A stretch of DNA of 30,948 nucleotides, from the IMG/VR virus record IMGVR_UViG_3300042504_003724, positions 1 through 30,948 of that record. The stretch is one strand, 5' to 3'. A model generated the notes under the pieces. The model was not told where the DNA came from. It made no database searches and saw nothing but the letters and a program-made list of their open reading frames with translations. Origin of the DNA: a virus. The translations under genes and the position numbers were made by a program. The first letter of the stretch is position 1, and every line of letters starts with the position of its first letter. Below are positions 627 through 23,209 of the stretch, piece after piece.

Positions 627-1625
627 ATGAAAATGCCGTCAACTCCGGACATCGGGGAAAAAGAACTAGAGGAAATATCAAAATTGGTCGTCGACGACTT
701 GGGTGGCGGTATAGTCGTTTTCAGGAATGCCTTCAATGTTGAAAAAGAAATCTTACAACACATTGACGAATGTTCAGCCGAAGCACACAAGACCAGGTGG
801 GAGTATCTAACGGGTGAAGACGGCGTTGAGTATGGCATAAACGAGGATGGCTTCAGGTATCGCCTGGAAGACGTCCCAAACGCGCCTGTGAGGCTCCTAG
901 AGCCCGTTAATGAGCAAACTGGGGAATATGCCACCCAGTACTTCACATACCTCGAGGACGTCATCTATAAGTGCCTAATACGCTACACGGACATGTTCCC
1001 CCTTGTTGTCGGGAGCCTTTGGTGGAGAACCAGGGGCCACGTCCTGCGATACGAGGGGGAGGGCATTCTTGGCTGGCACCAGGACAATGACACCAACTAC
1101 AAGGTCACCCAGGGCATCCGATACATGCCAAGGGGCCAGGTGGCGCTTAGGCAGACGGCTGGGGCACTTGCTTATTTTAATGATTGCGTTGATTCAAAAG
1201 AGCAGCTAGACGGAACCAATTTTACCGGTGGTCATTTGAAGTTTGCTTACCTCGGAATCGACTATCAGCCAAAGAAGGGGGACATCATTATGTTCCCCAC
1301 GAATTACATTTGTGCTCACGGTGTTACGCAAATGGAGGGCGGCGTTAGGTATGCATACCTGTCCTTCTTCGGACAGGGCGGCACAGACGCCTCGGCAAAC
1401 ATCCGAATCAAAGAGAAAGACTCAAGTCGACAATGGTGTGAGCCTGTGTGGTTTGACAACATCTATGATGACTATGAAAGATACTGCAAATCTTCATATT
1501 CGATTTGGTCACACCCAACACCCGGCCTCGAGCTTGGCTCCAATCCAGTATTTCAAAATAGGTGTGTGACCCAGTATGGAGAAACGCACATTGCGCAGGA
1601 GGTGAACCAGATTGAGACGATATGA
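627..1625 (+). CDS. 2OG-Fe(II) oxygenase, LGGG family copy 1
   Basis: This is a non-haem iron dioxygenase homologue. The family couples oxidative decarboxylation of 2-oxoglutarate to hydroxylation of a substrate. The facial triad is visible: His151 and Asp153 in GWHQDND, and distal His231 in CAHGVTQ. Arg241 (GGVRYAY) sits where 2-oxoglutarate's carboxylate is bound. The N-terminus carries DLGGGIVVF (24-32), and RGHVLRY (136-142) precedes the triad; both are shared with the proteins at 1612-2565, 3839-4729 and 4726-5586. At 332 aa it is longer than a minimal prolyl-4-hydroxylase domain (about 200 aa), with about 130 extra N-terminal residues. It follows the GPx-like gene by 2 nt and overlaps the next gene by 14 nt. 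Substrate unknown; protein side chain, lipid or sugar are all possible. Confidence 0.9.
   Translation: MKMPSTPDIGEKELEEISKLVVDDLGGGIVVFRNAFNVEKEILQHIDECSAEAHKTRWEYLTGEDGVEYGINEDGFRYRLEDVPNAPVRLLEPVNEQTGEYATQYFTYLEDVIYKCLIRYTDMFPLVVGSLWWRTRGHVLRYEGEGILGWHQDNDTNYKVTQGIRYMPRGQVALRQTAGALAYFNDCVDSKEQLDGTNFTGGHLKFAYLGIDYQPKKGDIIMFPTNYICAHGVTQMEGGVRYAYLSFFGQGGTDASANIRIKEKDSSRQWCEPVWFDNIYDDYERYCKSSYSIWSHPTPGLELGSNPVFQNRCVTQYGETHIAQEVNQIETI
1597..1604 (+). promoter_or_regulatory. Shine-Dalgarno site that fixes a TTG start
   Basis: AGGAGGTG lies 7 nt upstream of the TTG at 1612, inside the end of the preceding oxygenase gene. This near-perfect site supports the rare TTG start and the 14-nt overlap over any internal ATG. 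Confidence 0.8.
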
Positions 1626-2565
1626 GGTTGACACCCCAGAACTTACAATTGATGTGCTTGAAGAAATTAAGAATCTTAAATTTACCGACCTTGGCGGCGG
1701 TGTAGTCGTATTCCATGACGTTATGGATGTTGATTTGGATTTTATATCTAAGTGGATTGACGAGAACGCTCTTGCCGCGCATCAACAGCGCTGGAAATAT
1801 GACATGGACATAAACGGAGTAGTTTATGCAAAGAACGAAGACGGAAACAAATTCTCCATAGAACAAGTTGAAGCCGTTCCCGTTCGCGTGCTCGAACCAA
1901 TCCAAGACCACACGGAGCAAGAAGTAGTAGATATTATCCGTGGCTGGGAAGACGCTATTTACAAATCGCTAATCAGATATGTAGACATGTTCCCCCTCGT
2001 GGTCGGAACAATTTGGTGGAGAAATCGTGGCCACGTGCTGCGTTATGATTCAAGTAAATATCTTGGTTTACACAATGACAACGACACCAATTATCGAGCC
2101 ACCAAAGGCGAGAGATATATCCCATACGGACAAGTTGGGGCTCGACAAACAGTTGCTGTATTGCTCTACATAAACGATTGCGTTGAGTCCATTGATGAAC
2201 TCGATGGGACCAACTACAGCGGCGGTGAGCTTTACTTTCCATACCTGAACATAAGCCATCGAGCAAAGAGGGGAGACGTAATCATCTTTCCCACAAACTA
2301 TGTCGCTTCTCATGGGGTTAATACGGTTACAGGGGGTACGCGGTATGCCTACCTTGAGTTCTTTTCTCAGGGCAGCCCTGACATCAATGCCAGAATTGAA
2401 GTAGCTGAGCCAGGCGACGTGGCTACCTGGTGCATGCCTCACTGGATAGACACGGTTTACGACGACTACCAGAAATACTGCACATACTTAGATAAGCCAG
2501 AAGTTCTAGTGCGTAATCTAGAGGGGGAGAAGGGATACATACACCCTCTCAACATGGGCGAGTAA
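1612..2565 (+). CDS. 2OG-Fe(II) oxygenase, LGGG family copy 2
   Basis: This is a tandem paralogue of the preceding gene. Both have DLGGG at the N-terminus (26-30 here), MFPLVVG (126-132), RGHVLRY (139-145), the iron motif H-x-D in LGLHNDND (His154, Asp156), a distal His234 (ASHGVN) and a co-substrate Arg244 (GGTRYAYLEFF). The jelly-roll strands YINDC (186-190) and SGGELYFPYL (203-212) are also present. All predicted catalytic residues are intact, so the copy should be active. It starts with TTG, supported by AGGAGGTG 7 nt upstream, and overlaps the previous gene by 14 nt, which suggests translational coupling. Similarity is spread over the whole length rather than limited to the catalytic core, consistent with a local tandem duplication. 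Substrate unknown. Confidence 0.9.
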   Translation: MRRYEVDTPELTIDVLEEIKNLKFTDLGGGVVVFHDVMDVDLDFISKWIDENALAAHQQRWKYDMDINGVVYAKNEDGNKFSIEQVEAVPVRVLEPIQDHTEQEVVDIIRGWEDAIYKSLIRYVDMFPLVVGTIWWRNRGHVLRYDSSKYLGLHNDNDTNYRATKGERYIPYGQVGARQTVAVLLYINDCVESIDELDGTNYSGGELYFPYLNISHRAKRGDVIIFPTNYVASHGVNTVTGGTRYAYLEFFSQGSPDINARIEVAEPGDVATWCMPHWIDTVYDDYQKYCTYLDKPEVLVRNLEGEKGYIHPLNMGE

Positions 2566-2569
2566 TCAA

Positions 2570-3112
2570 GTGAATAACGTTGGAATAGTTTCACTGGGAA
2601 GCATGGGGGAGACGATTGCCCAAAGCGTCCACGAATCAGGTAATACTGTTCACTGGTCTTCAGAGGGGCGCTCCGAAAGGACGTTGAATAGGGCGCGCCA
2701 GATACGATGGGCCATAGAGCATCGAACCATCAGAGAACTTTTTGACTCATCTGACATTATTATCTGTATAGGTAGGGGCGGCATAGCTGAAGAGACTATT
2801 GAGTCGGCGACGAAATTTGAATTCAAAGGAATATACGTTGATGGGAACAACCTTCACGGTCTGGAGTCAGAGCAAAACATTTATTCAATCGCTAAAGCTG
2901 CTGGTATTAATTATGTCGAAGCGCTTTTTAGGGGATACCCAATGGGTTACGACCAGGGCGGAGGAGAAGATAAGAGGAACGTATACTTATCCGGACCGCA
3001 CCGCTCTGTCGAAATTGTTGAGTCGCTTTTTTCTGACGGAATATGGGAAGTTGAGATTGTTTTGGAGTCTGCAAAAAGTTTAAATAGAACTAGATTTAAA
3101 CGGCTTTTTTAG
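2570..3112 (+). CDS. Truncated 3-hydroxyisobutyrate/6-phosphogluconate dehydrogenase-like Rossmann protein
   Basis: The N-terminus VGIVSLGSMGETIA (4-17) matches the beta-hydroxyacid dehydrogenase dinucleotide-binding fingerprint G-x-x-x-L-G-x-M-G. Further family-like blocks are SDIIICIG (61-68), YVDGNN (89-94) and YVEALFRGYPMG (115-126). Family members are about 290 aa with a helical C-terminal domain that completes the active site. This protein stops at 180 aa, just where that domain would begin. It could be a cofactor-binding relic or a minimal protein with another role. The GTG start at 2570 is 4 nt after the preceding stop. The last 11 codons coincide with the terminator hairpin at 3072-3111, so the 3' end may have been lost when the terminator formed. 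Family assignment is fairly sure; enzymatic function is not. Confidence 0.7.
   Translation: MNNVGIVSLGSMGETIAQSVHESGNTVHWSSEGRSERTLNRARQIRWAIEHRTIRELFDSSDIIICIGRGGIAEETIESATKFEFKGIYVDGNNLHGLESEQNIYSIAKAAGINYVEALFRGYPMGYDQGGGEDKRNVYLSGPHRSVEIVESLFSDGIWEVEIVLESAKSLNRTRFKRLF
3072..3111. terminator. AT-rich bidirectional terminator between convergent operons
   Basis: There is a perfect 8-bp inverted repeat, GTTTAAAT (3078-3085) and ATTTAAAC (3094-3101), with an 8-nt loop. A run of five A lies on its left side (3073-3077) and six T on its right (3105-3110). Read on either strand, the hairpin is followed by a T-run. It sits exactly where the plus-strand genes (ending 3112) meet the minus-strand genes (ending 3117). 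The stem is AT-rich and so weaker than a textbook intrinsic terminator. Confidence 0.65.
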
Positions 3113-3116
3113 GTAT

Positions 3117-3842
3117 TTAACACTCTCCAACAAGAACGTTCCCCTGCTGGCTATTGCTTAAGCCAACATCGGATTTGAATTGTTTAACCCATTCAAGGGC
3201 TCTTGGTTTATTTTCCTGGCCGTTGCCATGGTAAAACCATGACAGAAAAGCCCAGCGCTCGCCTTCAACTACTTCGTCAACCTCATGGCAACCAATAAAA
3301 TTAGATGGATATATTAACGCGGAACCGAATTCTGGCTCCACCGTTATGCCCCACGTCCTAAATCTAACCCCGCCTCCAGAATAACCATCATTTATGAATA
3401 TTGATGTCGTTAGGGTGTTAAAAGCAGGACTTGTAGTTAGTGGCTCCAACGTCCCTGGCTTGTAGGGAATATTGCAATCAGAATGAGGCCCCATACCGTT
3501 ACCGGGAAGGTATCTAATTAGATATCCATCAGTTTGTCCAGTTATGCATTCCGCGGCGACGGGGAATATTTTGCAGTATTCAACGGCGGCAGTATAAATT
3601 GCGCTTCTCAATACGACGGTTACTCCAAGGTCCCCAATGTCTGTGTATCTGGCGGGGGCGGCTTGTTTGCCCTGCTCATCGAATTCATATCCACCATCAC
3701 TAATTATCTTGCCGTCCACAAGTGAATACCCTTGTGGAACTTTAGTCATAGGCAAAGACAGCAATTCTCCATCATCAAAATTGTTGCGCTCAATCAAGTT
3801 GCGAATCATCACGATTCCGTTACCAAGGTGCGTTATTCTCAT
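3117..3842 (-). CDS. 2OG-Fe(II) oxygenase, LGGG family copy 5 (short, divergent)
   Basis: The catalytic core of the 2-oxoglutarate/iron dioxygenase superfamily is complete: GPHSDCN (His120, Asp122), distal His186 in GCHEVDE, and Arg196 in GERWAFLSWF. The N-terminal block is HLGNGIVMI (5-13), a degenerate form of the LGGGVVVF marker of its neighbours, which makes it the most diverged and shortest (241 aa) member of that group. The jelly-roll strand SIFINDGYSGG (147-157) is clear. It is the last gene of the minus-strand run, ends 5 nt from the stop of the convergent plus-strand gene, and overlaps its upstream neighbour by 4 nt (ATGA). Activity is likely; the substrate cannot be read from the sequence. 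Confidence 0.88.
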   Translation of the reverse strand: MRITHLGNGIVMIRNLIERNNFDDGELLSLPMTKVPQGYSLVDGKIISDGGYEFDEQGKQAAPARYTDIGDLGVTVVLRSAIYTAAVEYCKIFPVAAECITGQTDGYLIRYLPGNGMGPHSDCNIPYKPGTLEPLTTSPAFNTLTTSIFINDGYSGGGVRFRTWGITVEPEFGSALIYPSNFIGCHEVDEVVEGERWAFLSWFYHGNGQENKPRALEWVKQFKSDVGLSNSQQGNVLVGEC

Positions 3843-4729
3843 GCGTGCTCACCCATTGTCAGTCTGTATGTTTTTGACGATTTATCTTCTCCAACCGAAT
3901 CCAGATATTCAAGGAATTTTTCCCGAAGGTGCGGAATGTAAACATTTGAAGACACTGCTGCTTTGTCTGGATTTACCACTGGGTCCTCAACCTCTTCGTT
4001 GACTGCAGGGTTTGGAGTGCCATGTGCATACCAGCCGAGATAGGTGAATCTTTCGCCGGAGCTGACGGGAGTCACCTCGTGGGCAGCCATATAGTTTGAC
4101 GGAAACATCAATATATCTCCCCTTTGTGGAGTGTAATCAATATCCAAATAAGTAAATCTATGATGCCCTCCGGTAAAATCTCCTGGCTCAGATAGCTTGC
4201 TCCCGTCTACGCAGTTACCAAAGTAAACAAGACAGGAAAGTGTGTTTCTTGATGCCAATTGATGAGGTGGGTGTGGGAGTCCATATACGTAGTCAACACT
4301 GGTGTCGCTGTGCTCCCCGATATACCCTCCACAGTCGGACGAGTAGCTAACCAAATGACCCTTAACCTTCCACCATATATTCTTGAAAACAAGAGGGAAC
4401 ATGTGCATATATCTAAAAAGATACTTATCTTTACACTCCTCGATAAAGGTGAATAATTCGACAACTTCGGGCCTGGTGTCCTGATGAACCCGAGACCCCC
4501 TTTTGGGCATTTTGTCTATCCCATTTTTTGAAAAGAAATAACCACTCCTATTGACGTATTCTTCTAGGCCATTGTCGGGGTTTATTGCAGGCTGATACAT
4601 GTCCCCCATTTCTCTATTGACTATTTCCTTGGATATTCTGTTTGCGTACTCCCAGTCAAGCCTTATTGCGTCACGGAATACGACAACACCCCCACCCAAA
4701 TGCTCAGCTTTTACATCGTTAAAAATCAT
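3839..4729 (-). CDS. 2OG-Fe(II) oxygenase, LGGG family copy 3
   Basis: A 296-aa dioxygenase homologue with HLGGGVVVFRDA (10-21) at its N-terminus and the iron ligands His140 and Asp142 (GEHSD), distal His217 (AAHEVTP) and Arg227 (GERFTYLGWY). MHMFPLV (108-114) and WWKVKGHL (119-126) correspond to MFPLVVG and RGHVLRY of the plus-strand copies. It overlaps both neighbours by 4 nt (ATGA junctions), typical of a translationally coupled phage operon. It is a member of the group that straddles the convergent terminator, so its duplication history involves an inversion or an independent insertion. Substrate unknown. Confidence 0.9.
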   Translation of the reverse strand: MIFNDVKAEHLGGGVVVFRDAIRLDWEYANRISKEIVNREMGDMYQPAINPDNGLEEYVNRSGYFFSKNGIDKMPKRGSRVHQDTRPEVVELFTFIEECKDKYLFRYMHMFPLVFKNIWWKVKGHLVSYSSDCGGYIGEHSDTSVDYVYGLPHPPHQLASRNTLSCLVYFGNCVDGSKLSEPGDFTGGHHRFTYLDIDYTPQRGDILMFPSNYMAAHEVTPVSSGERFTYLGWYAHGTPNPAVNEEVEDPVVNPDKAAVSSNVYIPHLREKFLEYLDSVGEDKSSKTYRLTMGEHA

Positions 4730-5586
4730 TTATGGTCATCTTTCCGGGATTTAAACACAGCCTTCCCAGTTGGTATTTTACCCTCATCGCCGTATTTGTC
4801 CATAAGGTATTGCTCGTAGTCTTTCACTAAATCTGGCATCCACCACTGTCCACCTATTGGCCTGGCATGTCCTTGTATCGGCTCATTTGGGGAAATTCCA
4901 CGTTCTTGATTGGGCGAGCCCTGGGCAAACCAAGATAAATATGAATATCTAGACCCAGACGTTACTTCCATTATTTCGTGAGCGCCAAGATAGTTGGCTG
5001 GCATGAATAGCACGGTTCCCATTTTAGGTTTCATGGTTATACCGAAATATGGTATTTCCATTTCGCCGCCAGTAAACGAGTACTCATCGCACTCGTTGCC
5101 CTCGCAATTGCTATTCAAGTAGACCAAAGCGCTAATTACGTTCCTTGTTGCGTGCTCAAATGGGGGGAGCTGACCATATTTGTAATTAACATCATTATCG
5201 CAGTGAAATCCCAACTTGGAGCCAGTTGGGTACTTTAGGACATGCCCCTCACTTTTCCACCACAAGCACTGCAAGGCTGCTGGGAATATTTCTATATATT
5301 CGAGAAGACATTGGTAAATTACTCGTTCACAATCTTGGAAGAATTGATGTTCAAGTTTTTGGATTCTAATTGGGTTTTTCTTAATTTCTTCCAATTCATA
5401 TATAAACCCGCTTTTATTTATTGCGTGCACTGGTATGCCATCAAGGTCCAAAACATACTCATACTGCTCTTTGATTGCTGCATCAGAAAGCCTGTCTATA
5501 AGCTCTACTATTTCCGCAACTGGGACACTGATTGCGTCTTCAAAAGCTACAACGCCACCACCAAGGTTCTTGATTGTTCCAGGCAT
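4726..5586 (-). CDS. 2OG-Fe(II) oxygenase, LGGG family copy 4
   Basis: This 286-aa protein shows NLGGGVVAFEDA (7-18) and the catalytic set His128-Cys-Asp130 (LGFHCDND), distal His203 (GAHEIME) and Arg213 (GSRYSYLSWF). The motif HCDNDVNY matches HQDNDTNY and HNDNDTNY of the plus-strand copies, so it is closer to those than its neighbour at 3839 is. KSEGHVLKY (111-119) is the equivalent of RGHVLRY. It is expected to hydroxylate or otherwise oxidise an unknown substrate using Fe(II), O2 and 2-oxoglutarate. It overlaps the downstream gene by 4 nt and is separated by 9 nt from the upstream one. Confidence 0.9.
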   Translation of the reverse strand: MPGTIKNLGGGVVAFEDAISVPVAEIVELIDRLSDAAIKEQYEYVLDLDGIPVHAINKSGFIYELEEIKKNPIRIQKLEHQFFQDCERVIYQCLLEYIEIFPAALQCLWWKSEGHVLKYPTGSKLGFHCDNDVNYKYGQLPPFEHATRNVISALVYLNSNCEGNECDEYSFTGGEMEIPYFGITMKPKMGTVLFMPANYLGAHEIMEVTSGSRYSYLSWFAQGSPNQERGISPNEPIQGHARPIGGQWWMPDLVKDYEQYLMDKYGDEGKIPTGKAVFKSRKDDHK

Positions 5587-5595
5587 ATGAATATA

Positions 5596-6225
5596 CTAGT
5601 CGTAGGCAGACCAGTCTGGAACAGGGGTTCTATTTGGGCTCACTGGAGAAAAATTTGCACTGACCACTATTCTCGGTTCATCCGATAGGTGCCTATCGGT
5701 GTGGTGCTGAATGAAAGAGTTAAAAATTAAAAACATACCCTCTTCTGGAATCACTGGAATTATCGTCTCGATGGTGTTGCATACGCTTATGTTGAACATC
5801 AATTTTGCACTTCCGGGTGGAACGTTTACATAATACGCAACAGAGTAATACTCGCCTGGATGCATATGCGTGTTTGACTTATGAGAATGCACCCCTACGG
5901 ATTGCCCTTTTGTTAGAGTCAGTGACCAACACTCATTTATGGTCATCGGTTTTTTAGCAATAAAGCTAACCTTTTCCGTCATTAATTTTTTTAATTTTTT
6001 GCATTCTTCTCCTTCTGGTAAGGAATTATCGCCAGAAGCTTCTTTGACATAGTTTAAGTAACTCGTTTTATTCTCTAAAAGATTTACATTAGATTCTTGA
6101 ATTTCAAGGCTCTGCGCGTGATTATGTATTTCCTGTGAGAGCCTAATATTATTGATGTCTAAGGATGATTTATATATGTTCACTGGGCAGATTGGTATTG
6201 AAAAAAATTCCTCATTCATAAACAA
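5596..6225 (-). CDS. Putative 2OG-Fe(II) oxygenase with H-x-H iron motif
   Basis: The C-terminal half has the double-stranded beta-helix layout seen in the phage oxygenase family I associate with Pfam 2OG-FeII_Oxy_5. It has GVHSHKS (111-117), then HPGEYYSVAYYVNVP (122-136), a distal His174 or His175 (IQHHTD), and Arg185 in PRIVVSANF. The proximal motif is His-Ser-His (113-115) rather than the usual His-x-Asp; HMH at 120-122 is also nearby. The N-terminal 90 residues are helical-looking and unassigned. The start at 6225 (MFM) overlaps the upstream gene by 14 nt; the second Met at 6219 is an alternative. Family membership is likely, but metal binding by this variant is uncertain. A cupin-like non-enzymatic protein is the main alternative. 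Confidence 0.65.
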   Translation of the reverse strand: MFMNEEFFSIPICPVNIYKSSLDINNIRLSQEIHNHAQSLEIQESNVNLLENKTSYLNYVKEASGDNSLPEGEECKKLKKLMTEKVSFIAKKPMTINECWSLTLTKGQSVGVHSHKSNTHMHPGEYYSVAYYVNVPPGSAKLMFNISVCNTIETIIPVIPEEGMFLIFNSFIQHHTDRHLSDEPRIVVSANFSPVSPNRTPVPDWSAYD

Positions 6226-6883
6226 AATTAGCCATGTCTACAGGAGGATTTGATTTTAGCCAAACGTTTACGACCATTACGTTTCTCATTCCAGAAACGC
6301 AGGGGCTAGTTTGATGAATCACCCTTCCTGCGTCAAATATTATTAACCTGTTTTCCTTAAACGCAATTCTTTCTCGCAACTCAATTGGGTCTAACTTTTT
6401 TTCAAGATTCTCCCATTCAAGAGCATTTAGTTCACCGAAATTAAGCTTGGACTCAAAAAGCTCCAAGAAACCACCAACGACTTTTTCGTTTGACGGTCCG
6501 TAGTAGACGCAGCCAATTTCTGGACCATTATAAATCTTTGTGTCCTGATACAAGAACGTATCCTCGTCAACATGCGGCCCAAGAAATTGTCCTGGCCCAA
6601 ACGTACGTGTCCAATACTCGAACCCAAGAATATTCTCTTTTTCAAATGGGAGATTGCTTTCCCATATGTCTCTGATTACCTTTTTTCTTAGAGTGTCGGC
6701 CGAGGACGTCCACCATCCATCCCAAAACATATACGGTGCGTAGCAGCTGGCCTGGTCATTGTGATAGGAATTGACCTCACTTGCTATTCGGCTGTCCGTT
6801 TGCATTATTCCTGGGAAAAATGACTTGTCCGACTTGATTTCATCAAGTAGTGATGAACTTAAAAAGTTATCGAATATATTCAC
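6212..6883 (-). CDS. 2OG-Fe(II) oxygenase, P4H-superfamily
   Basis: A 223-aa dioxygenase homologue unrelated in its N-terminus to the LGGG group. Iron ligands are His104 and Asp106 (LGPHVDED) and His190 (RVIHQTSP); Arg200 (GMRNVMVVNVW) is the expected co-substrate contact. The block NRLIIFDAGRVIH (178-190) is the usual strand preceding the distal His. Two Trp-rich stretches (WDGWW 54-58, FEYWTRTFGPG 88-98) may shape the substrate pocket. It begins 18 nt after the methyltransferase-like gene stop and overlaps the next gene by 14 nt. The residues predict an active enzyme; the substrate is unknown. Confidence 0.85.
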   Translation of the reverse strand: MNIFDNFLSSSLLDEIKSDKSFFPGIMQTDSRIASEVNSYHNDQASCYAPYMFWDGWWTSSADTLRKKVIRDIWESNLPFEKENILGFEYWTRTFGPGQFLGPHVDEDTFLYQDTKIYNGPEIGCVYYGPSNEKVVGGFLELFESKLNFGELNALEWENLEKKLDPIELRERIAFKENRLIIFDAGRVIHQTSPCVSGMRNVMVVNVWLKSNPPVDMANFVYE

Positions 6884-6901
6884 GTTCGGACACTATCACG
6901 G

Positions 6902-7657
6902 CTAGTGTTTCACAAAAGTCGTGTGTCCATAATTTTCTGAACTGTGATATGTGTATCCGTTGTTTGACTTCAACACTTCATGCATCCTGTTGTTCGGGTG
7001 AAAGAAAAAGTCGTCTCTGTATAGTTTGCCAGAGTTGTTTGAAGCCAGAACCAAGAGGACACCACCAGAACTCAGTGCATTTACGCAATTCTGCAAAATT
7101 TCTAAATCTGTCTCAACGTCTTCTATGCGCATTTGTATGAAATCAAAACCAATCGCATCGCCGGTTCCTATCTCCTCAAGTTCAACAACCGAATAGTCGA
7201 TGTCCATGTAGTTTTCGCCTTCATTGTCAATCTCAAAATCGCGGATAAACTGTTCGAAATTCCACAATGGTTGAGTATTAGGGAAACAAATGTGAACGCC
7301 TGGATTATCTTTTTTATACAAGAAAGTAGCCAGAGTTCCATCAACTCCAAAAATTAAACATTTGTTTGGTTTTTTTAATGAGTAAACATACTCAACTGGG
7401 ACCACACCACAAGCGACCAGGTCCGCCCATGGGGATATCGGGTCCCTAAGCCAATCAACATACCAAAGGCCTTCAGTGGAACCCCTCGCGGCCACCGACA
7501 TATTTAGCCCAACTGACTCTCTCCATTGGTAGATGCGTTCCATTGATTCGAACGTGTGTTTTCTTATTTCTTCGGCCGTCATTGTCGGCACAGAATCCCA
7601 AGACGTATTTGAAAGTGCGACCTGCACCATTGCTGTTCTCAGTTGTCTGTTATCCAT
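6902..7657 (-). CDS. Methyltransferase-like Rossmann-fold protein (degenerate SAM motif)
   Basis: No confident family hit by eye. Residues 100-111 (CLIFGVDGTLAT) could be a worn version of the SAM-binding glycine loop. FDFIQMRIEDVETDL (171-185) followed by LQNCVNALSSGGVLLVL (188-204) matches the order strand 4, helix, strand 5 of class I methyltransferases, where an L-x-x-GG-x-L turn is typical. The C-terminus (GYTYHSSENYGHTTFVKH) could form the last hairpin. The first 90 residues are unassigned and hold several Trp. It starts inside the end of the upstream small gene (8-nt overlap). If it is a methyltransferase it would fit a modification cassette; loss of cofactor binding is also possible. 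Confidence 0.4.
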   Translation of the reverse strand: MDNRQLRTAMVQVALSNTSWDSVPTMTAEEIRKHTFESMERIYQWRESVGLNMSVAARGSTEGLWYVDWLRDPISPWADLVACGVVPVEYVYSLKKPNKCLIFGVDGTLATFLYKKDNPGVHICFPNTQPLWNFEQFIRDFEIDNEGENYMDIDYSVVELEEIGTGDAIGFDFIQMRIEDVETDLEILQNCVNALSSGGVLLVLASNNSGKLYRDDFFFHPNNRMHEVLKSNNGYTYHSSENYGHTTFVKH

Positions 7658-7967
7658 TTTTTACAGCCTTTGCAAGAGAGTAATTCCAAGCTGCTCTTCG
7701 CGCTCGGTCTTTGAGTGTTGCATTCATTTTGGCGAAAAATCTAGGTATCGCATTCGTCGTATATATCGGCTCACCGCTTCCCCTGATGTCGCTGCTGTAC
7801 TTCCACATGCTCCCCAGTCTTGCAACCAATTCCTCAATATCCATTGAATCTATGCTGTCTGGGTCGAAATCTAGCATGTATGCAAAAACAGCAAGCTGCT
7901 TTTCGTTGTAATGTATTTGGTTTTCAGCGTTGTAAAGATTTTCGCCAGTAGCAGCTCTATGCCTCAT
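7650..7967 (-). CDS. Hypothetical protein (105 aa)
   Basis: Not recognised. It is soluble and probably helical, with an Arg/Ala-rich C-terminal part (AKMNATLKDRARRAAWNYSLAKAVKNG region, about residues 79-105) that could bind nucleic acid or pack as a helix. An acidic middle stretch, DFDPDSIDSMDIEEL, covers about residues 33-47. It overlaps the upstream gene by 11 nt and the downstream gene by 8 nt, which supports it as a real, translationally coupled gene. Nothing indicates membrane insertion or a catalytic motif. Confidence 0.6.
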   Translation of the reverse strand: MRHRAATGENLYNAENQIHYNEKQLAVFAYMLDFDPDSIDSMDIEELVARLGSMWKYSSDIRGSGEPIYTTNAIPRFFAKMNATLKDRARRAAWNYSLAKAVKNG

Positions 7968-8265
7968 TGAAAAGCTCCTCTATTTCTTCGTTTTTTGTAA
8001 AATCGCCTGGCTCTGTTGTTTCCCATTTTTTCTGCGGGTCATTTGACTGCAGTAAGTCACAGAACCACATTGCACCATCTGGTAGCTCGTATGACATTAA
8101 TCGTGGATTCCATTTAACCACTTGGGAATTTCTATTCGGATTCTGCTGTGGCTCTTGTATGTTTGGGAAGTCCGGGTCGATATCTGGGCACGCTTCGTAC
8201 CTTCCTTCACTCAAAGCCTCTTCAACAATGGATAACTTCTTGGGTATGCGAGGCACAATTTTCAC
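7957..8265 (-). CDS. Hypothetical protein (102 aa)
   Basis: Not recognised. The N-terminus is basic (MKIVPRIPKK) and is followed by an acidic, proline-rich linker (CPDIDPDFPNIQEPQQNP, about 26-43). A compact segment WNPRLMSYELPDGAMWFCDLL (about 52-72) and a strongly acidic tail complete it. No membrane segment. It lies 10 nt after the upstream stop and overlaps the downstream gene by 11 nt, as expected for a genuine small phage gene. Confidence 0.6.
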   Translation of the reverse strand: MKIVPRIPKKLSIVEEALSEGRYEACPDIDPDFPNIQEPQQNPNRNSQVVKWNPRLMSYELPDGAMWFCDLLQSNDPQKKWETTEPGDFTKNEEIEELFNEA

Positions 8266-8275
8266 AGCCTGCCCA

Positions 8276-8509
8276 CTAACTCTGTAGTCTTACCAATGCC
8301 GCCAATTGCAGTTTCAAACATTCATATGCGTCATACTGGGCAACGAGAGCGCTGTTTTCTGACAAAGACATATCTATTGGATTTGCCATGTCTGGCTCTA
8401 GGTCTTCATCCTCGATACCTAAAGTAAAAGCCAGTGTATAAATAGAGTATTCGAGAATTTGAACCGCCTCCGCTTTTGCGCTGGCCAATTGCTCTACTGA
8501 TAGTGCCAT
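8276..8509 (-). CDS. Hypothetical small acidic helical protein (77 aa)
   Basis: Not recognised. The sequence is almost entirely helix-favouring, with an acidic central loop (GIEDEDLEPDMANPIDMS, about 31-48) between two amphipathic helices. It might act as a small chaperone or adaptor, but that is only a structural impression. It is separated from both neighbours by about 10 nt in the minus-strand run. Confidence 0.55.
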   Translation of the reverse strand: MALSVEQLASAKAEAVQILEYSIYTLAFTLGIEDEDLEPDMANPIDMSLSENSALVAQYDAYECLKLQLAALVRLQS

Positions 8510-8518
8510 GTTTGAAGG

Positions 8519-8755
8519 TTACTCCGCAATCTTCGATTTGACGTTGCTAATTTTTGCAAGGAAGTCAACAATCAGCTTGTGGCCCTGAATCATCCCGTGG
8601 TGGTCTGTGCCTGGTACAAAATTCTCTGCATCAAACGTGTCGGGGTCAAAGCCTTCCTGAATGAGTCTCTCCATGAGCTGTCTCTCCAGGTCCTTGAGGG
8701 TGCGCTGGTAGACGAGCTTCTTCTCCTGGGTTGAAAATGAGGATTCAAATTTCAT
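8519..8755 (-). CDS. Hypothetical helical protein (78 aa)
   Basis: Not recognised. I chose the ATG at 8755 because GGAG lies 5 nt upstream on the coding strand (complement at 8761-8764). A TTG at 8794 would add 13 residues and has a weaker AGGG site. The protein starts MKFESSF. It has a long charged helix (TQEKKLVYQRTLKDLERQLMERL region) with heptad-like spacing, so a short coiled coil is possible, then a DPDTFD loop and a second helix. It belongs to the block of four small unknown genes (7650-8755). Confidence 0.6.
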   Translation of the reverse strand: MKFESSFSTQEKKLVYQRTLKDLERQLMERLIQEGFDPDTFDAENFVPGTDHHGMIQGHKLIVDFLAKISNVKSKIAE

Positions 8756-8812
8756 ACTGTCTCCATTGTGCCTATAGTCGTACGGATACCCCAATTGTAC
8801 CCTAATTCTATA

Positions 8813-9514
8813 CTAGGGATTGGCCAGTTTGGGCATTCCGGTAAAGGTGGGTCCTATCTGTTTGCCGTCTGCGTCAACACCTGTTTTAATTCCCTTGGTC
8901 CAAGTCCATGGATTTTCATACCTATTATCTTCTTTTAGCTTGCCGTATTTCATTCGCGATTCAACCAACTCTTTGTCGTCCCAAAGATTTGACGTAACGA
9001 TTTCTGTGCTCTCAAGGACAGAATTATCGTAGATATTAAAGAAGCAGAACGGGGTTCCAGCCCCAAATACCACAGGCTCTCCAATTTTGGTTATTTTCCA
9101 ATTCATCTGGGATTCGTCTGGCCACCAATAACTAGGGATTGTGGCGGTAAGTGGGGTGGCTCCGTCAACAAAATAGTTCGGGGAACCAGTCATCCAGGTG
9201 TTGTAGCCCTCTTCGGTGCTTATAACCCAACCAATATTTATTGAAATCATTCCAATTATTGATGAAATTGCCTGAACCCGACCAGATGAGGTTATCTCTC
9301 CAGAAAGAATTTCTGGCGGTGTATTGCCACCATTCCACTGGACGACCAGGTCTTCTTCAAGAACAACTTCCCACCCGTAGACATTTGCAACAGTCATTGG
9401 CATACATTGATAGGCGTGCTTGTTGTACGTAGCATCCATCCAGTCACGCTTAAGCCTAGATTGCTGTATTAGGGGTGAACTTATATGTGTTCGTTTTAGG
9501 AATAGTTTTGTCAT
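8813..9514 (-). CDS. DUF6065-like hypothetical protein
   Basis: The N-terminal third carries RDWMDAT (23-29), AYQCMPMTVANVYGWE (34-49) and WNGG (60-63). I associate this combination with the uncharacterised family DUF6065, found in phages and bacteria; the name is from memory and should be verified. The rest is rich in aromatic residues and glycine, ending in a loop-rich tail with GIKTGVDADGKQIGPTF (about 208-224). No membrane segment or signal peptide. Its start overlaps the stop of the upstream prolyl-hydroxylase-like gene by 4 nt (ATGA), so the two are probably translated together. Biochemical role unknown. Confidence 0.6.
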   Translation of the reverse strand: MTKLFLKRTHISSPLIQQSRLKRDWMDATYNKHAYQCMPMTVANVYGWEVVLEEDLVVQWNGGNTPPEILSGEITSSGRVQAISSIIGMISINIGWVISTEEGYNTWMTGSPNYFVDGATPLTATIPSYWWPDESQMNWKITKIGEPVVFGAGTPFCFFNIYDNSVLESTEIVTSNLWDDKELVESRMKYGKLKEDNRYENPWTWTKGIKTGVDADGKQIGPTFTGMPKLANP

Positions 9515-10242
9515 TTTTGAAAAATAAATCTTCCGACTTGATTCGCTGTTGGGCTAACTATACCCGGCCCGTACTCGACGTCGGTGCCATCTATGTTCTT
9601 TCCGTATCCCTTCCACTGTCTATGGAACCTGTCATTGTAGTCAAACATTGTGACAGCTGCGTACTTGGTTCCCCTAGTAACGGGCTTGGACGCATGAGAG
9701 TAAATAAAGGTAGAAGGGAACAAAACAATGTCTCCATATTTTGGCTTGAAAGTTATATCCAGAAATGGGAAAAACAGTTCACCGCCATCGTAGTCATCGT
9801 TTAGGTACATGACCGAAGAGACCGTGCACACATAGGAGAATCCATGGTCTGCGTGCACATTGAAGTGTTGGCCTTCGTTGTATCTAACATAATTAATTGC
9901 TTCCATGAAATCCATGCGGATGTTGTATCTGGATTCGTAATCTTGCAAGCAAGCAGTCAACCCGGTCACGGTGTCGTTGTATATATTTATCAACTCACTG
10001 AATTGCGTTGGACAGTGTTCAAAGTGAGCAGGGCTCATCTTGCAATCGACACAGTCTCTGTAGTCCTTCATAACTTGCCCGTCGCCAACAAGAGCCTGCA
10101 TCCACGAGTATGGCGGAGTTGTGCTATCCCCAATTGTCGCCTCTAGGCGTTCTGGTATTTTTAAGTCTTCACTCAATATGTTCCTGTAAACCAGAAATCC
10201 AGCTTTCGGGTCTCCAACATACTCAACATCAATGTTTCTCAT
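9511..10242 (-). CDS. Prolyl 4-hydroxylase-like 2OG-Fe(II) oxygenase (Lys variant)
   Basis: The core is typical of phage prolyl-4-hydroxylase-like domains: NVHADHG (His130, Asp132), VMYLNDDYDGGELFFPF (144-160), FPSTFIYSH (175-183, distal His183) and GTKYAAV, where Lys193 replaces the Arg found in all neighbouring copies. Animal collagen prolyl hydroxylases also use Lys to bind 2-oxoglutarate, so function is plausible. The longest reading frame begins at 10347, but that would overlap the upstream gene by 98 nt. The Met at 10242, 7 nt past the upstream stop, gives 243 aa and is preferred. A Cys-rich stretch (DCVDCKMSPAHFEHC, 63-77) could bind a metal. It overlaps the downstream gene by 4 nt. 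Confidence 0.85.
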   Translation of the reverse strand: MRNIDVEYVGDPKAGFLVYRNILSEDLKIPERLEATIGDSTTPPYSWMQALVGDGQVMKDYRDCVDCKMSPAHFEHCPTQFSELINIYNDTVTGLTACLQDYESRYNIRMDFMEAINYVRYNEGQHFNVHADHGFSYVCTVSSVMYLNDDYDGGELFFPFLDITFKPKYGDIVLFPSTFIYSHASKPVTRGTKYAAVTMFDYNDRFHRQWKGYGKNIDGTDVEYGPGIVSPTANQVGRFIFQK

Positions 10243-10249
10243 TGGCTCA

Positions 10250-10777
10250 TCATATCTGGGAAAACCATATCGCCAACGATAGACGCTCTCCTTCGAGAAC
10301 ACTATCAACGTAATGACTATATGGTAAATTGCTTGGAAAAATGACACAACTACCAGCGCGCGGTTTATATCGGTAGCCAGCTTTAGGGAAAACTAAGTCC
10401 CCGCCCGAGAATCCATCGTTTAAATAGACAACCGCAGAAACAACGAAATTATTGCAACCCAACTTTGGCGTTCCGTCAAGGTTTTGGCTATCCGCATGTT
10501 CTTCGGGCAGATTTCCTGGAATCACCCCAATAAGTACCGCCGTATCAATGATTAGGGCTGTCTTGAATTCTTCTTCTGCAATTTTTAAAACCCTTTCACA
10601 TATGCCCTCAAAAACACCATACGAAAACGCATCGTATTCAAACAAGGCATGTTTATCGTAGTATCCGGTTGATGGGTCATTTTCTGAATAGTTTGACGGA
10701 AAACCAATTTCTTTAATTGCGTCTAATATGGCCTCATATTCTTTCGGTTCTATCAAGTTTAATTTGCTTATAATCAT
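10250..10777 (-). CDS. Prolyl 4-hydroxylase-like 2OG-Fe(II) oxygenase (short)
   Basis: A compact 175-aa catalytic domain with EEHADSQ (His94, Asp96), VVYLNDGFSGGDLVFP (116-131), PYSHYVDS (distal His155) and GERLSLAIWF (Arg165). The length is close to a minimal P4H-type domain without substrate-binding extensions. Family members hydroxylate proline or other residues in proteins or peptides; the target here is unknown. It starts 3 nt after the upstream oxygenase stop and ends 7 nt before the next start, in the middle of a run of three P4H-like genes. Confidence 0.87.
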   Translation of the reverse strand: MIISKLNLIEPKEYEAILDAIKEIGFPSNYSENDPSTGYYDKHALFEYDAFSYGVFEGICERVLKIAEEEFKTALIIDTAVLIGVIPGNLPEEHADSQNLDGTPKLGCNNFVVSAVVYLNDGFSGGDLVFPKAGYRYKPRAGSCVIFPSNLPYSHYVDSVLEGERLSLAIWFSQI

Positions 10778-10780
10778 CTT

Positions 10781-11413
10781 TTATTTAACCGTATAGAAAG
10801 AAGGGGTGGTATACCTGTATCCCTTTGTTATCATCGTAACTCCGTGCAGGTAGTTGACGTCACCTGGATGAGCAATTGCTAGGCCTGGCTTTGGCCTAAT
10901 GCTTATATCATGCTGCGGGTAATATAGCTCTCCGCCTTCAAAATCATCATTGTAATAAAATAATGAGTTCAGGTCGTAGTCGACAAAGGCGTTTGGCTCA
11001 CCGTTGTTGAGCTGCTTATCGGCATGTGGCCTTTGCTCAATCCCTGGTCTCCATTTCATGATTACTGGGGGTCGAGAGGAAAGTTCTAGGCCATAAATTT
11101 CTTCAAGAGCAGTTTGCATCTTTTGTATATATTTATCGATAATGTTAAAAACCGGCACTGAAAGTCTTTGGAGAATGTCGCTGCTGCATTGCCTGTCGTT
11201 CCAGTAATCAGCGTTATACAGACAGGTCCCATCTTCAGCGTAAACGCTTTCTTTTGAATTATTCCACTCGTTTATTGTTGGACAAAATTTTTGTATTACC
11301 TCAATATCTGATTTGTCAATAAAATTTTCAAATATGTGGATGTTTTCTGGTCCTGAACCAAAATGACCTGGTTCCACCCTCCATGGTGACAGCGAGTTTT
11401 CGCTCATTTTCAT
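10781..11413 (-). CDS. Prolyl 4-hydroxylase-like 2OG-Fe(II) oxygenase
   Basis: A 210-aa dioxygenase homologue with RPHADKQ (His129 or 130, Asp132), SLFYYNDDFEGGELYYP (150-166), IRPKPG (172-177), NYLHGVT (distal His190) and GYRYTTPSFY (Arg200). It is close in layout to the enzyme at 12918-13538: both share the IHADG/PHADK core, the IRPKPG or IKPKPG turn and the HGVT-x-x-x-x-G-x-RY end. The two therefore probably form a pair of paralogues flanking the two sulfotransferase-like genes. It overlaps the upstream sulfotransferase-like gene by 4 nt. Confidence 0.88.
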   Translation of the reverse strand: MKMSENSLSPWRVEPGHFGSGPENIHIFENFIDKSDIEVIQKFCPTINEWNNSKESVYAEDGTCLYNADYWNDRQCSSDILQRLSVPVFNIIDKYIQKMQTALEEIYGLELSSRPPVIMKWRPGIEQRPHADKQLNNGEPNAFVDYDLNSLFYYNDDFEGGELYYPQHDISIRPKPGLAIAHPGDVNYLHGVTMITKGYRYTTPSFYTVK

Positions 11414-12168
11414 AGATTAGCACTCTCGCCGCTTCTCACCAGATGATAAACCATACTGTCAATGTCGCAGCGACTGAGGATTTCTCTGACGTGGCTAATA
11501 TCGGGAGTAAAATTGTTTTTAAAAGAAGAATTAGATACGTTTTTGATTGATTGGTCTAGTTTCAATCCATGGTCAAGTAGGATTTTTTTTCTGAGCCACT
11601 CAATCCCGATGTGTCTATTGTCCAGAGTAAATATAAACATATTTTCTATTTTGTTTTTTATTTCTTCTTCGCTCGGCATATCAGACTCAATAAATACAAT
11701 ATTTTCCCTACTTTGGACATCGTCATCCGTAAGCGAAACTACAGAGCTATCTGCCAAACCAATTCTACAAAATAACATCTTTGATTGCAGATTTCCAGAA
11801 TTGGAGAATAATTCGTTTGCTCCAAATGGAGTCATATAGCCGTACAAGAATTCTTCCATAAATTCACTTGACATAACTCTGTCTGAATTCGCACACACAT
11901 ATGAGGCAATGCTCATATAGTGGCTAATGGGTTCCCTCACAAAAGAAAACACATCAAATTTTTCATCTTCAACGGACACTGGGTTGGTTGCAAAGTGGCC
12001 CGAAACGAATGGGATATCTGTAAAACTTTTCTTGTCGTACATCAATCGACTAGTGCCGGTGTTGTTTATTTTGCGAAGCAGACCAGCATTGACAAACGTT
12101 CCATAAAGCGCATCACACACAGACTTGCCAGAGGTGCGTGGTATGTGAAGATGATAAATCCTATGCAT
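11410..12168 (-). CDS. Sulfotransferase-like protein 1
   Basis: The N-terminus YHLHIPRTSGKSV (5-17) is the 5'-phosphosulfate-binding loop of PAPS-dependent sulfotransferases of the carbohydrate/heparan type. The 3'-phosphate motif is visible as FVREPISHYMS (76-86) with Arg78 and Ser86. SGHF (56-59) between them is another family marker. These enzymes transfer sulfate from PAPS to hydroxyl groups of sugars, or in related families to tyrosine. The length of 252 aa is that of a bare catalytic domain with no membrane anchor. It overlaps the flanking sulfotransferase gene by 8 nt and the downstream hydroxylase by 4 nt. A hydroxyl acceptor made by a neighbouring oxygenase is an attractive but untested idea. 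Confidence 0.78.
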   Translation of the reverse strand: MHRIYHLHIPRTSGKSVCDALYGTFVNAGLLRKINNTGTSRLMYDKKSFTDIPFVSGHFATNPVSVEDEKFDVFSFVREPISHYMSIASYVCANSDRVMSSEFMEEFLYGYMTPFGANELFSNSGNLQSKMLFCRIGLADSSVVSLTDDDVQSRENIVFIESDMPSEEEIKNKIENMFIFTLDNRHIGIEWLRKKILLDHGLKLDQSIKNVSNSSFKNNFTPDISHVREILSRCDIDSMVYHLVRSGESANL

Positions 12169-12928
12169 TTTGCCTCAACGGTCGTTCTTTCATCTTTGCA
12201 TAAAGTTCCATATCTAGTTCTATTTTGCTAGTGATTGAAATCACTTGTCTTTTGTTCAGCTTAAACGAGAGTGGTGGAGTCTCGTTGACGATAGAGTCGT
12301 CGGTCTTTATTGACGTATTAAACATTCGGATTAGAATAGTGTTGACAAAATCAATCAACTGACCCCTTTCTTCGGTGAGGCCAATTATTATATTCTCAAG
12401 TCTTTGGCTAAGCTGAGAGTATGACTGAGGTTTTTCTACAAAAAAACTTTTGGCTATGTCTATAATTGGGTTTCCAAATTCATTAACGCCCACCTGTTTC
12501 TCTATACCGGCAATTTTTGAATACAAAAAACAAGATTGTGGATTTTCGCACCCCGACATACCCTCAAACCTAGAGTTGATTTCGTTGTTGTTGGACAAAA
12601 ATTCATCCAAGAAATTTCTATCAAATGTATCTCCTTGTTGCAGAGCGGAATATTTGGCCAGACTTAGATACTGCTCGAACGGTTCTCTAATCATAGAAAA
12701 AGAAATTAGATTATCAATTGAGCCAATTGGATTCCTACCAAAGTGTCCACAAATTATGTTATGCGACTCGGCTATTTTTGGGTCAAATACGAATTCGAAA
12801 TCTTTAGGCAGGTATACATTCGGCGAATTTATTGCAAGTGGATTTTTTGCACATTCGATAAGGTCGTAGTGCATCTTTGTGCCCGATGTTTTCGGAATAT
12901 GTAAAAAGTAAAGGTTCTCACCCTTCAT
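12161..12928 (-). CDS. Sulfotransferase-like protein 2
   Basis: A paralogue of the downstream gene: LYFLHIPKTSGTKM (6-19) for the 5'-phosphosulfate loop, CGHFGRNP (60-67), and MIREPFEQYLS (79-89) with Arg81 and Ser89 at the same spacing as in the first copy. The C-terminal IELDMELYAKM segment (about 236-246) matches the end helix common in this family (pattern D-x-x-LY). It is 255 aa with no signal peptide or transmembrane segment, so it should be cytosolic where PAPS is available. Its start lies within the end of the upstream P4H-like gene (11-nt overlap) and it overlaps the downstream copy by 8 nt. Confidence 0.78.
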   Translation of the reverse strand: MKGENLYFLHIPKTSGTKMHYDLIECAKNPLAINSPNVYLPKDFEFVFDPKIAESHNIICGHFGRNPIGSIDNLISFSMIREPFEQYLSLAKYSALQQGDTFDRNFLDEFLSNNNEINSRFEGMSGCENPQSCFLYSKIAGIEKQVGVNEFGNPIIDIAKSFFVEKPQSYSQLSQRLENIIIGLTEERGQLIDFVNTILIRMFNTSIKTDDSIVNETPPLSFKLNKRQVISITSKIELDMELYAKMKERPLRQNA

Positions 12929-13538
12929 TCATTTTTGCCATTTCCATAAGTATCTTATGCTTGGTGGGAGTCCAAAAATGTGGTGATGTATATCGAATTC
13001 CCGATTTAACCTCAGTAACCCCATGAGTGTACATGTTGGTTGACGGAAAGAATATCAGGGTTCCGGGTTTTGGTTTTATGAAAATGTCGTATTTTGGAAA
13101 AAAAAGTTCGCCGCCTTCATAATCATCATTTAAATAAATAATTGAACCATAATCAACTATGTAGTTATACCCTGGCCACCCACCAGCCGTTTCGCCGTCT
13201 GCATGAATGTCTTGATACTCACCCGGGTACCACTTCCTAATACCTGGCTTTGTCTTTTCAAGCTTTCTTCCAAATTTATATTCAATTTCATGCTGAACAT
13301 TATCGACATACTGCTGCATAATGTGAAATACTTGCGTGGAATTTTTTTCAATGTATTCAGGCATGTGAATACTGTCCGTACCAAGCTCACTTCTGGACTC
13401 CCATTCCGAAACCGTTGAGCAATATGTAACTATTTCTTCTAAGTGTTTTTCACTTATGAAGTTTTCTTTTATTATTATGTTCGATGGGTCAGCAGAGGGC
13501 AGACTGGATAAATCAAAAGCCTCTTCTCTGAATGCCAT
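12918..13538 (-). CDS. Prolyl 4-hydroxylase-like 2OG-Fe(II) oxygenase next to the PPFF protein
   Basis: A 206-aa P4H-type enzyme with QDIHADGE (His112, Asp114), IIYLNDDYEGGELFFPKYD (133-151), IKPKPGTLIFFPS (154-166), YTHGVTE (distal His172) and GIRYTSPHFW (Arg182). All catalytic residues are present. The gene is the first of the modification block and starts only 9 nt after the stop of the FN3 protein whose C-terminus is a run of PPFF units. That makes the Pro-rich tract a natural candidate substrate, although nothing in the sequence proves it. It overlaps the first sulfotransferase-like gene by 11 nt. Confidence 0.9.
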   Translation of the reverse strand: MAFREEAFDLSSLPSADPSNIIIKENFISEKHLEEIVTYCSTVSEWESRSELGTDSIHMPEYIEKNSTQVFHIMQQYVDNVQHEIEYKFGRKLEKTKPGIRKWYPGEYQDIHADGETAGGWPGYNYIVDYGSIIYLNDDYEGGELFFPKYDIFIKPKPGTLIFFPSTNMYTHGVTEVKSGIRYTSPHFWTPTKHKILMEMAKMNEG

Positions 13539-22660: not shown

Positions 22661-23209
22661 TCAGCATGAACCAACTCCTGCGCAGCCTGTAAAATTCGCA
22701 AATGTTGCTGGGCATCCACAATTCGGGTCGCCATAAGCATCCCAAATTCCACCAAAAAAACAGCCCTGTGCGGTGGAGTTTGGAGAACAGTCAGTAAACG
22801 TATACATGTAGGCGTAAGCCGAGCCGCATACGTATCCAGCGCATGGGTCGAAAGCTGGTGGGAAAAACGGTGGGAAGAATGGCGGAAAAAACGGTGGGAA
22901 ATATGGTGGGGCAACAGGAGAAACAGAATTGGTCGCAGAGGAAGCAGCGGTCACTCCAGAACCACTTACAGTTGTGACTGTAAACGTGTAAGCGGTGCCG
23001 TTGCTCAAACCAGTAATTATTATTGGAGAACCTATTCCCGCTGCGGTTATTCCCCCAGGATTTGATGTTACAAGATAGGAAACTTCTCCTTTTCCTTTAT
23101 GCACGGGAAGCGTAAAAGAAACAGTTGCTAGAGCATTTCCTGCCGTAGCAGAAACGTTGGTTGGAAGGTCAACAAACTTTCCACCGCTTGCGTGATTGCC
23201 CGAAATCAC
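22661..23209 (-). CDS. FN3 virion protein with short PPFF repeat and Cys-rich tail
   Basis: The 182-aa protein has three parts. One FN3-like domain spans about 12-98 (TGLSNGTAYTFTVTT at 66-80 matches the fourth FN3 of the 414-aa protein). A PPYF-PPFF-PPFF-PPFF-PPAF tract covers 101-120. A tail (121-182) has eight Cys at 123, 128, 141, 150, 164, 166, 176 and 182. The even number of Cys suggests a disulfide-stabilised or metal-binding tip, rich in aromatic and small residues. NSV-x-PVAPPYFPP is shared with the 414-aa protein, so both are built from the same module. It overlaps the 1265-aa fibre stop by 4 nt (ATGA). A host-contact role is likely but not shown. Confidence 0.7.
   Translation of the reverse strand: MISGNHASGGKFVDLPTNVSATAGNALATVSFTLPVHKGKGEVSYLVTSNPGGITAAGIGSPIIITGLSNGTAYTFTVTTVSGSGVTAASSATNSVSPVAPPYFPPFFPPFFPPFFPPAFDPCAGYVCGSAYAYMYTFTDCSPNSTAQGCFFGGIWDAYGDPNCGCPATFANFTGCAGVGSC
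22850..22909 (-). repeat. Short PPFF-encoding repeat (5 units)
   Basis: Five 12-nt units encode PPYF, three PPFF and PPAF at residues 101-120 of the 182-aa protein. It is the second occurrence of the tract at 13566-13697. Confidence 0.85.

Follow-up and report, generated by a model that had tools for sequence, protein, structure and literature searches.

Introduction

Oxygenases that depend on Fe(II) and 2-oxoglutarate (2OG) are abundant in aquatic phages, and in open-license papers we found no demonstrated substrate for them. Marine T4-like phages such as S-SCSM1, P-SSM2, S-SSM7, and HTVC008M carry many such genes per genome, of the families PF13640 and PF13759, and the papers that describe them read them as metabolic or repair genes (PMC3037559; PMC9602691). 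Outside the phages, the closest described enzymes are vCPH of PBCV-1 (5c5t), an enzyme of the prolyl 4-hydroxylase (P4H) fold that is encoded by a eukaryotic virus and has a collagen-type substrate, and the algal enzyme Cr-P4H-1 (3gze, 2jig), which has a cell-wall substrate and whose structure was determined in complex with (Ser-Pro)5 in an extended form. Here we describe an array of eleven 2OG-Fe(II) oxygenase genes at positions 627–13538 of the IMG/VR virus record IMGVR_UViG_3300042504_003724, from an uncultured large aquatic phage, and its association with a proline-rich tail protein. The window that we analyzed is the whole record of 30,948 bases; its genes are lettered as in Table 1.

The array shares features with each of these systems and departs from each. 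Like vCPH, its enzymes are virus-encoded and related to P4H, but the virus is bacterial, the associated repeat is aromatic-proline, and there are up to eleven enzymes per array. The product of gene O has a P4H-type iron and 2OG site, as does Cr-P4H-1, although the two are only 17–18% identical and the algal enzyme has no phage context. In the marine T4-like phages, by contrast, the oxygenase genes are mostly dispersed, those tested have no FF-PP repeat, and the sampled members lie outside the clade of O. Bacterial PiuC (PKHD-type) and bacterial P4H, to which the sequence profiles of the LGGG group (B, C, E, F, and G) and of O are related, are not phage genes, and we know of no repeat-bearing tail gene beside either of them.

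Results

The strongest clue to the substrate of these enzymes, and one absent from the earlier description of this DNA (the original prediction), is the gene next to them. Reading along the minus strand, tail genes run into gene U, whose stop codon precedes the start of the oxygenase gene T by 9 bp. The inferred product of U consists of fibronectin-III-like repeats followed by an unbroken C-terminal (PP[FY]F)x10 tract of 45 residues that ends in PGFK; its C-terminal form can be written PVAPPYFPPYFPP(FFPP)n...FK. The identical 45-residue tract was found in 20 loci, in which up to 33 of the 45 codons differ and every change is synonymous. That count comes from a search for identical tracts, yet every close relative with DNA reaching the end of U carries the tract. 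A second tail-module protein, Z, is a possible further substrate.

To follow the repeat beyond this record, we scanned IMG/VR for FFPPFFPP, choosing contigs by the repeat alone and counting among the matches listed. PF13640 was present in 35 of 36 such contigs, most of which held 5–12 matches each, mostly on the strand of the repeat gene. Around 63 non-redundant FFPP loci, the density of same-strand 2OG genes in the six kilobases downstream was 0.68, 0.29, 0.62, 0.75, 0.83, and 0.60 per kb, as compared to 0–0.07 per kb upstream. A 2OG gene lay at most 3 kb downstream in 29 of the 37 FFPP loci having at least 3 kb of downstream DNA, and where the first downstream 2OG gene was within 1.2 kb it belonged to the type represented by O in 50 of 61 loci. 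Genes of the T type directly follow FFPP genes in two loci (L087 and L114).

A controlled comparison was anchored on gene W, whose product shares 42–45% identity with virion structural proteins from named cyanophages, S-PM2 among them. We split 80 IMG/VR loci with W orthologues by the presence of at least five FF(x)PP-type repeats. All 26 loci with repeats had a 2OG gene and 24 had one of the O type; in the two others (L327 and L394), the downstream DNA ends only 5.0 and 5.6 kb past W. Among the 54 loci without repeats, six had any 2OG gene and none had an O-type gene (p = 2e-18 for the O-type contrast). When the loci were collapsed to 47 nucleotide clusters, O-type genes were present in eight of eight clusters with repeats and in none of 39 without (p = 3e-9). 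Four loci that were initially scored as repeat-free and yet were rich in 2OG genes (L362, L364, L367, and L399) proved to carry pentapeptide variants, FF[SAG]PP, directly before the O-type gene. Enzyme and structural substrate candidate thus occur together at the W locus, as a virion-hydroxylation system calls for. The hidden Markov models for this comparison and for the FFPPFFPP scan were built from the window's own families; PF13640 agreed with them at the contig level. At collagen-like GPAGPA loci, a 2OG gene lay within 3 kb in only 1 of 118 cases, but we prefer the W-anchored control because the GPAGPA pattern is palindromic and GC-biased.

Three consecutive FFPP units are rare in cellular genomes: among 85k bacterial and archaeal genomes, they were found in only 12 stretches, of which four encode genuine repeat proteins, probably on viral contigs in metagenome-assembled genomes. 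All three genuine repeat genes with downstream DNA are accompanied by O- or Q-type genes, as against none of eight chance reading frames. Of the oxygenase types, O shows the tightest linkage to FF-PP repeats. A match between O subtypes and repeat subtypes is at most suggested: a [QK]EHADHG motif is present in the O-type enzyme of 10 of 11 FFxPP phages, for which common descent is an equally good explanation.

In other phages, some FFPP tail proteins (L376:13920-15260, L090:6071-7390, L146:3043-5565, and L128:2128-3858) end in Hint/intein-like domains, as judged by sub-threshold Pfam matches, which suggests that the repeat protein of those phages may be self-processing.

We then turned to the enzymes themselves. 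The eleven open reading frames, two on the plus strand and nine on the minus strand, are all where the original prediction placed them, with Pfam and PHROG support. Eight score above the PF13640 cut-off (34–50 bits), H passes PF13759, and I and Q are sub-threshold in PF13640 (24 and 21 bits); a six-frame PF13640 scan of the record, run separately, gave 8 matches. Membership in the TET/JBP family was rejected (15.8 and 16.9 bits, against a Pfam cut-off of 34.9). As had been predicted, ten members have the iron-binding H-x-D and distal H of the 2OG-Fe(II) superfamily, followed exactly 10 residues on by the 2OG residue, which is Lys in O and Arg in the other nine; these residues are conserved among 9–20 orthologues per gene. 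The eleventh, H, has H-x-H instead, and H113, H115, H120, H174, and R185 are all retained in its orthologues, so that the H-x-H is a family trait and not a mark of decay. In a phylogenetic tree, B, C, E, F, and G formed one clade (support 100/99), T, Q, and P grouped together, and H and I stood apart. O fell in a separate clade (100/99) that comprises the FFPP-adjacent enzymes and includes none of 20 sampled 2OG proteins of named phages. Of the five members that the original prediction placed in the LGGG group, E is LGNG and not LGGG. In PHROGs and in RefSeq phage records, several 2OG families are labeled "ferrochelatase" or "DNA endonuclease," likely a misannotation.

Structural and profile comparisons point to prolyl hydroxylases. 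The AlphaFold model of O (predicted local distance difference test [pLDDT] score 83.6) has as its best Foldseek match in the PDB the algal P4H with (Ser-Pro)5 (3gze, 6.8e-11); nearly all of its best matches are prolyl hydroxylases, and vCPH (5c5t) ranks third. The model of G (pLDDT 86.1) best matches vCPH (7.8e-10), and its ranking too is dominated by prolyl hydroxylases. Both models match oxygenases of the double-stranded β-helix fold with a probability of 1.00; the other nine members are assigned by Pfam and PHROG. Because TM-scores, normalized by target, are about 0.55–0.7, the fold evidence is to be read at the level of family and not as proof of substrate. By sequence profile, O matches Bacillus anthracis P4H (BaP4H, 4e-7) and LH3 (1e-4), and T and Q match the prolyl 3-hydroxylase P3H1 (1e-9), PiuC, and BaP4H (3e-7). 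The LGGG profile is closest to PKHD-type PiuC-like proteins (3e-6), and the likeness to prolyl hydroxylases is thus weaker for this group by sequence.

Synteny of the array extends to 23 contigs of uncultured viruses (55–100% identity of the query gene), two of them of 170 and 172 kb, and the 15 related records scanned hold 5–12 PF13640 matches each. The ratio of nonsynonymous to synonymous substitutions (dN/dS) for the oxygenase genes is about 0.04–0.21 where dS is unsaturated; for several genes dS is too high to measure and the ratio unreliable, while dN stays low. The genes are under purifying selection and are not decaying copies. P evolves fastest among the P4H-like set (44–66% identity to close orthologues). 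Among GenBank phages, no close relative was found by megablast of 24 kb or by distant blastn of the repeat DNA, although repeats may be masked there by the low-complexity filter of BLAST. Encoded in the 172-kb relative are a contractile tail sheath and a TerL of phrog_979, the best matches of which (~41%) are to psiM2 and Gordonia phages; it also carries genes for a PAPS reductase and a Nol-like carbamoyltransferase (L032:13687-14850 and L038:10696-12129).

Neighboring genes are listed with the oxygenases in Table 1. The residue numbers given for O are counted from the GTG at 10347, but its true start is probably the ATG at 10242, since a start at the GTG would overlap the preceding gene and the model is of low confidence over the first ~35 residues. 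The DUF6065 protein N is conserved at 74–84%, on a par with the oxygenases. Pfam and PDB searches with J gave no match and no fold lead. R and S share a conserved 5′-phosphosulfate-binding-like motif (LHIPRTSG) and conserved GHF..NP and R-E/D-P...S motifs; profile searches did not confirm them as sulfotransferases, since a PDB profile match to a heparan sulfate 6-O-sulfotransferase was not significant (E = 0.33) and a Pfam search, sulfotransferase families included, gave no match. A glutathione-peroxidase-like gene (PF00255; window 1-624) adjoins the array and is kept in relatives.

Table 1. Oxygenase genes, their neighbors, and tail-module genes in the window
Gene	Product	Position	Strand	Residues, matches, and remarks
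B	LGGG-group 2OG oxygenase	627..1625	+	H151-D153-H231-R241; PF13640 5e-8
C	LGGG-group 2OG oxygenase	1612..2565	+	H154-D156-H234-R244; PF13640 3e-8; sister of B
E	LGNG member of LGGG-group 2OG oxygenases	3117..3842	-	H120-D122-H186-R196; PF13640 3e-9
F	LGGG-group 2OG oxygenase	3839..4729	-	H140-D142-H217-R227; PF13640 7e-10
G	LGGG-group 2OG oxygenase	4726..5586	-	H128-D130-H203-R213; PF13640 2e-9; modeled
H	PF13759-type 2OG oxygenase with H-x-H	5596..6225	-	PF13759 9e-9; phrog_81 1e-24
I	Divergent 2OG oxygenase	6212..6883	-	H104-D106-H190-R200; PF13640 below cut-off; phrog_274 6e-6
J	Conserved protein	6902..7657	-	Methyltransferase-like by eye only
N	DUF6065 protein	8813..9514	-	PF19541 5e-42; 4-bp overlap with O
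O	Prolyl-hydroxylase-like 2OG oxygenase, HADHG motif	9511..10242	-	H165-D167-H218-K228; PF13640 5e-13
P	P4H-like 2OG oxygenase	10250..10777	-	H94-D96-H155-R165; PF13640 3e-11
Q	P4H-like 2OG oxygenase	10781..11413	-	H130-D132-H190-R200; phrog_61 2e-17; PF13640 sub-threshold; FFPP-adjacent relatives
R	Sulfotransferase-like paralogue of S	11410..12168	-	Motifs in alignment
S	Sulfotransferase-like	12161..12928	-	LHIPKTSG, GHF..NP, R-E-P..QY.S invariant in alignment
T	P4H-like 2OG oxygenase	12918..13538	-	H112-D114-H172-R182; PF13640 8e-9; phrog_61 8e-26
U	Fibronectin-III-like tail-module protein, proposed substrate	13548..14792	-	phrog_1696 "major tail protein" 1e-7
W	Virion structural protein, anchor of controlled test	15575..18340	-	phrog_5838 3e-272
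Z	Second tail-module protein, fibronectin-III-like domain and short (FFPP)n tract	22661..23209	-	Weak phrog_1696 0.0087

Discussion

Because repeats and oxygenases go together consistently across phages, the enzymes probably modify the tail, and we favor as the likely reading that the array is a phage prolyl-hydroxylase system that acts on the phage's own proline-rich tail protein. The genes, their intact catalytic residues, the purifying selection on them, the modeled fold of two members, and the linkage of the O type to the repeat are the ground from which we infer substrate, product, timing, and function, as well as whatever the LGGG group contributes, and likewise H, I, R, S, and N. The minus-strand genes would constitute a late tail-maturation module, with U and the neighboring enzyme genes expressed late. 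The tail protein U, and probably Z, would terminate in a rod formed by an extended run of aromatic-proline repeats (PPFF/PPYF). O above all, together with T, Q, and P, would hydroxylate the prolines of this rod during virion assembly, using Fe(II), O2, and 2-oxoglutarate, in the way that P4H modifies collagen or the Ser-Pro wall proteins of algae. The modified prolines may stiffen the rod or alter its surface. The LGGG group would be a lineage-specific expansion of similar fold, acting on the same or neighboring virion proteins.

A more elaborate scheme, which we regard as rather doubtful, is that of a tailoring pathway in which several enzymes hydroxylate the FF-PP rod prolines (and perhaps neighboring residues) in sequence and R and S then add sulfate, giving a chemically built adhesive virion surface. 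That R and S might add sulfate to a hydroxyl is suggested by their motifs.

Several observations weigh against a tail-directed system. One FFPP contig (G022/L049) has zero PF13640 matches. The LGGG group occurs in this lineage and only rarely at other FFPP loci, with no enrichment at FFPP loci outside the lineage. The linkage itself could reflect a co-inherited tail cassette, the loci being related by descent and the clusters not fully independent. Prolyl hydroxylation is read from genes, linkage, and models, and the placement of the U tract on the virion surface from neighboring genes. Finally, the named kyanoviruses tested have several PF13640 matches, yet FFPP repeats were not found in them; phage 2OG enzymes must therefore have other substrates too, and our claim is limited to the O type and its array companions and does not extend to phage 2OG enzymes generally.

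Among other explanations, the best placed, although improbable in our judgment, is that the oxygenases are auxiliary metabolic genes that adjust the 2-oxoglutarate, nitrogen, or succinate balance of host and phage and that lie near the tail genes because the site is an insertion hotspot. Accessory genes do cluster near phage tail modules, and a metabolic role, the usual reading of cyanophage 2OG genes, has been published for cyanomyoviruses (PMC3037559; PMC9602691). A generic metabolic role, however, gives no reason to expect dependence on a repeat in the product of a neighboring gene, whereas at one and the same locus O-type genes were present in 24 of 26 cases with the repeat and in 0 of 54 without it. 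Nor does it fit that peptidyl-prolyl hydroxylases are what the folds and profiles match, or that no psbA was found in the 172-kb relative and the FFPP phages tested, a lack that also makes a cyanobacterial host improbable for this lineage. Somewhat less probable still is a peptidyl target in the host, such as a ribosomal protein or EF-Tu: the complex of Pseudomonas putida P4H with EF-Tu (4iw3) is among the best structural matches of O, but a host target leaves both the FF-PP linkage and the position in the tail module unexplained.

It is very unlikely that the genes lack a coherent function, being duplicates, either selfish or in decay, within a hypervariable island associated with the tail. 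Duplications are visible (the B/C pair, and extra copies of O and T in L015 and L026-L029), but the conserved catalytic residues, the low dN/dS, and the synteny of the array tell against this reading, as does the sustained purifying selection. On this point the original prediction, which had taken the diversity of the set as a sign of different substrates under selection, was right about selection and less so about diversity: the five LGGG/LGNG members are a single monophyletic expansion within the lineage, and the one modeled is prolyl-hydroxylase-like. A base-modification system of the TET/JBP type, acting on DNA or RNA, has the least to commend it and can be set aside: against weak, sub-threshold Tet_JBP matches (B, 0.008; T, 0.004) and the name "DNA endonuclease" on some matching PHROG families stand PDB matches to TET at E of about 0.07 as compared to 1e-7 to 1e-9 for P4H and P3H.

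How much of this is new? The number of oxygenases is not. PF13640 counts in named phages run from 0 in T4 and 1 in S-CRM01 to 9 in P-SSM2 and HTVC008M and 11 in S-SSM7 and S-SCSM2R, and a count of 24 2OG genes has been reported for cyanophage S-SCSM1 (PMC9602691). Eleven is therefore unremarkable by itself, and the earlier premise that one to a few is the usual number per phage fails for marine myoviruses. The array is also standard among the uncultured relatives, but we found it characterized in none of the open-license papers, which held nothing relevant on phage prolyl hydroxylation, PPFFPP repeats, or 2OG action on virions. Of the original prediction, the intact enzymes under selection are borne out, and the modification system that it suggested is plausible and apparently still undescribed. 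The novelty lies in the substrate clue and in the linkage between oxygenases and a proline-repeat tail protein.

That linkage makes PPFF/PPYF peptides a substrate that can be tested with the oxygenase type most often found beside the repeat. Should the tailoring pathway hold, phages would possess post-translational tailoring directed at a dedicated repeat, for which we found no precedent in open-license papers. If the favored reading is correct, these genes would have to be re-annotated from auxiliary metabolic functions to virion maturation, and some bacterial viruses would be using enzymes of the collagen type to modify tail proteins of their own, contrary to a published statement that the enzymes of collagen prolyl hydroxylation are missing from bacteria and viruses (PMC3368898).

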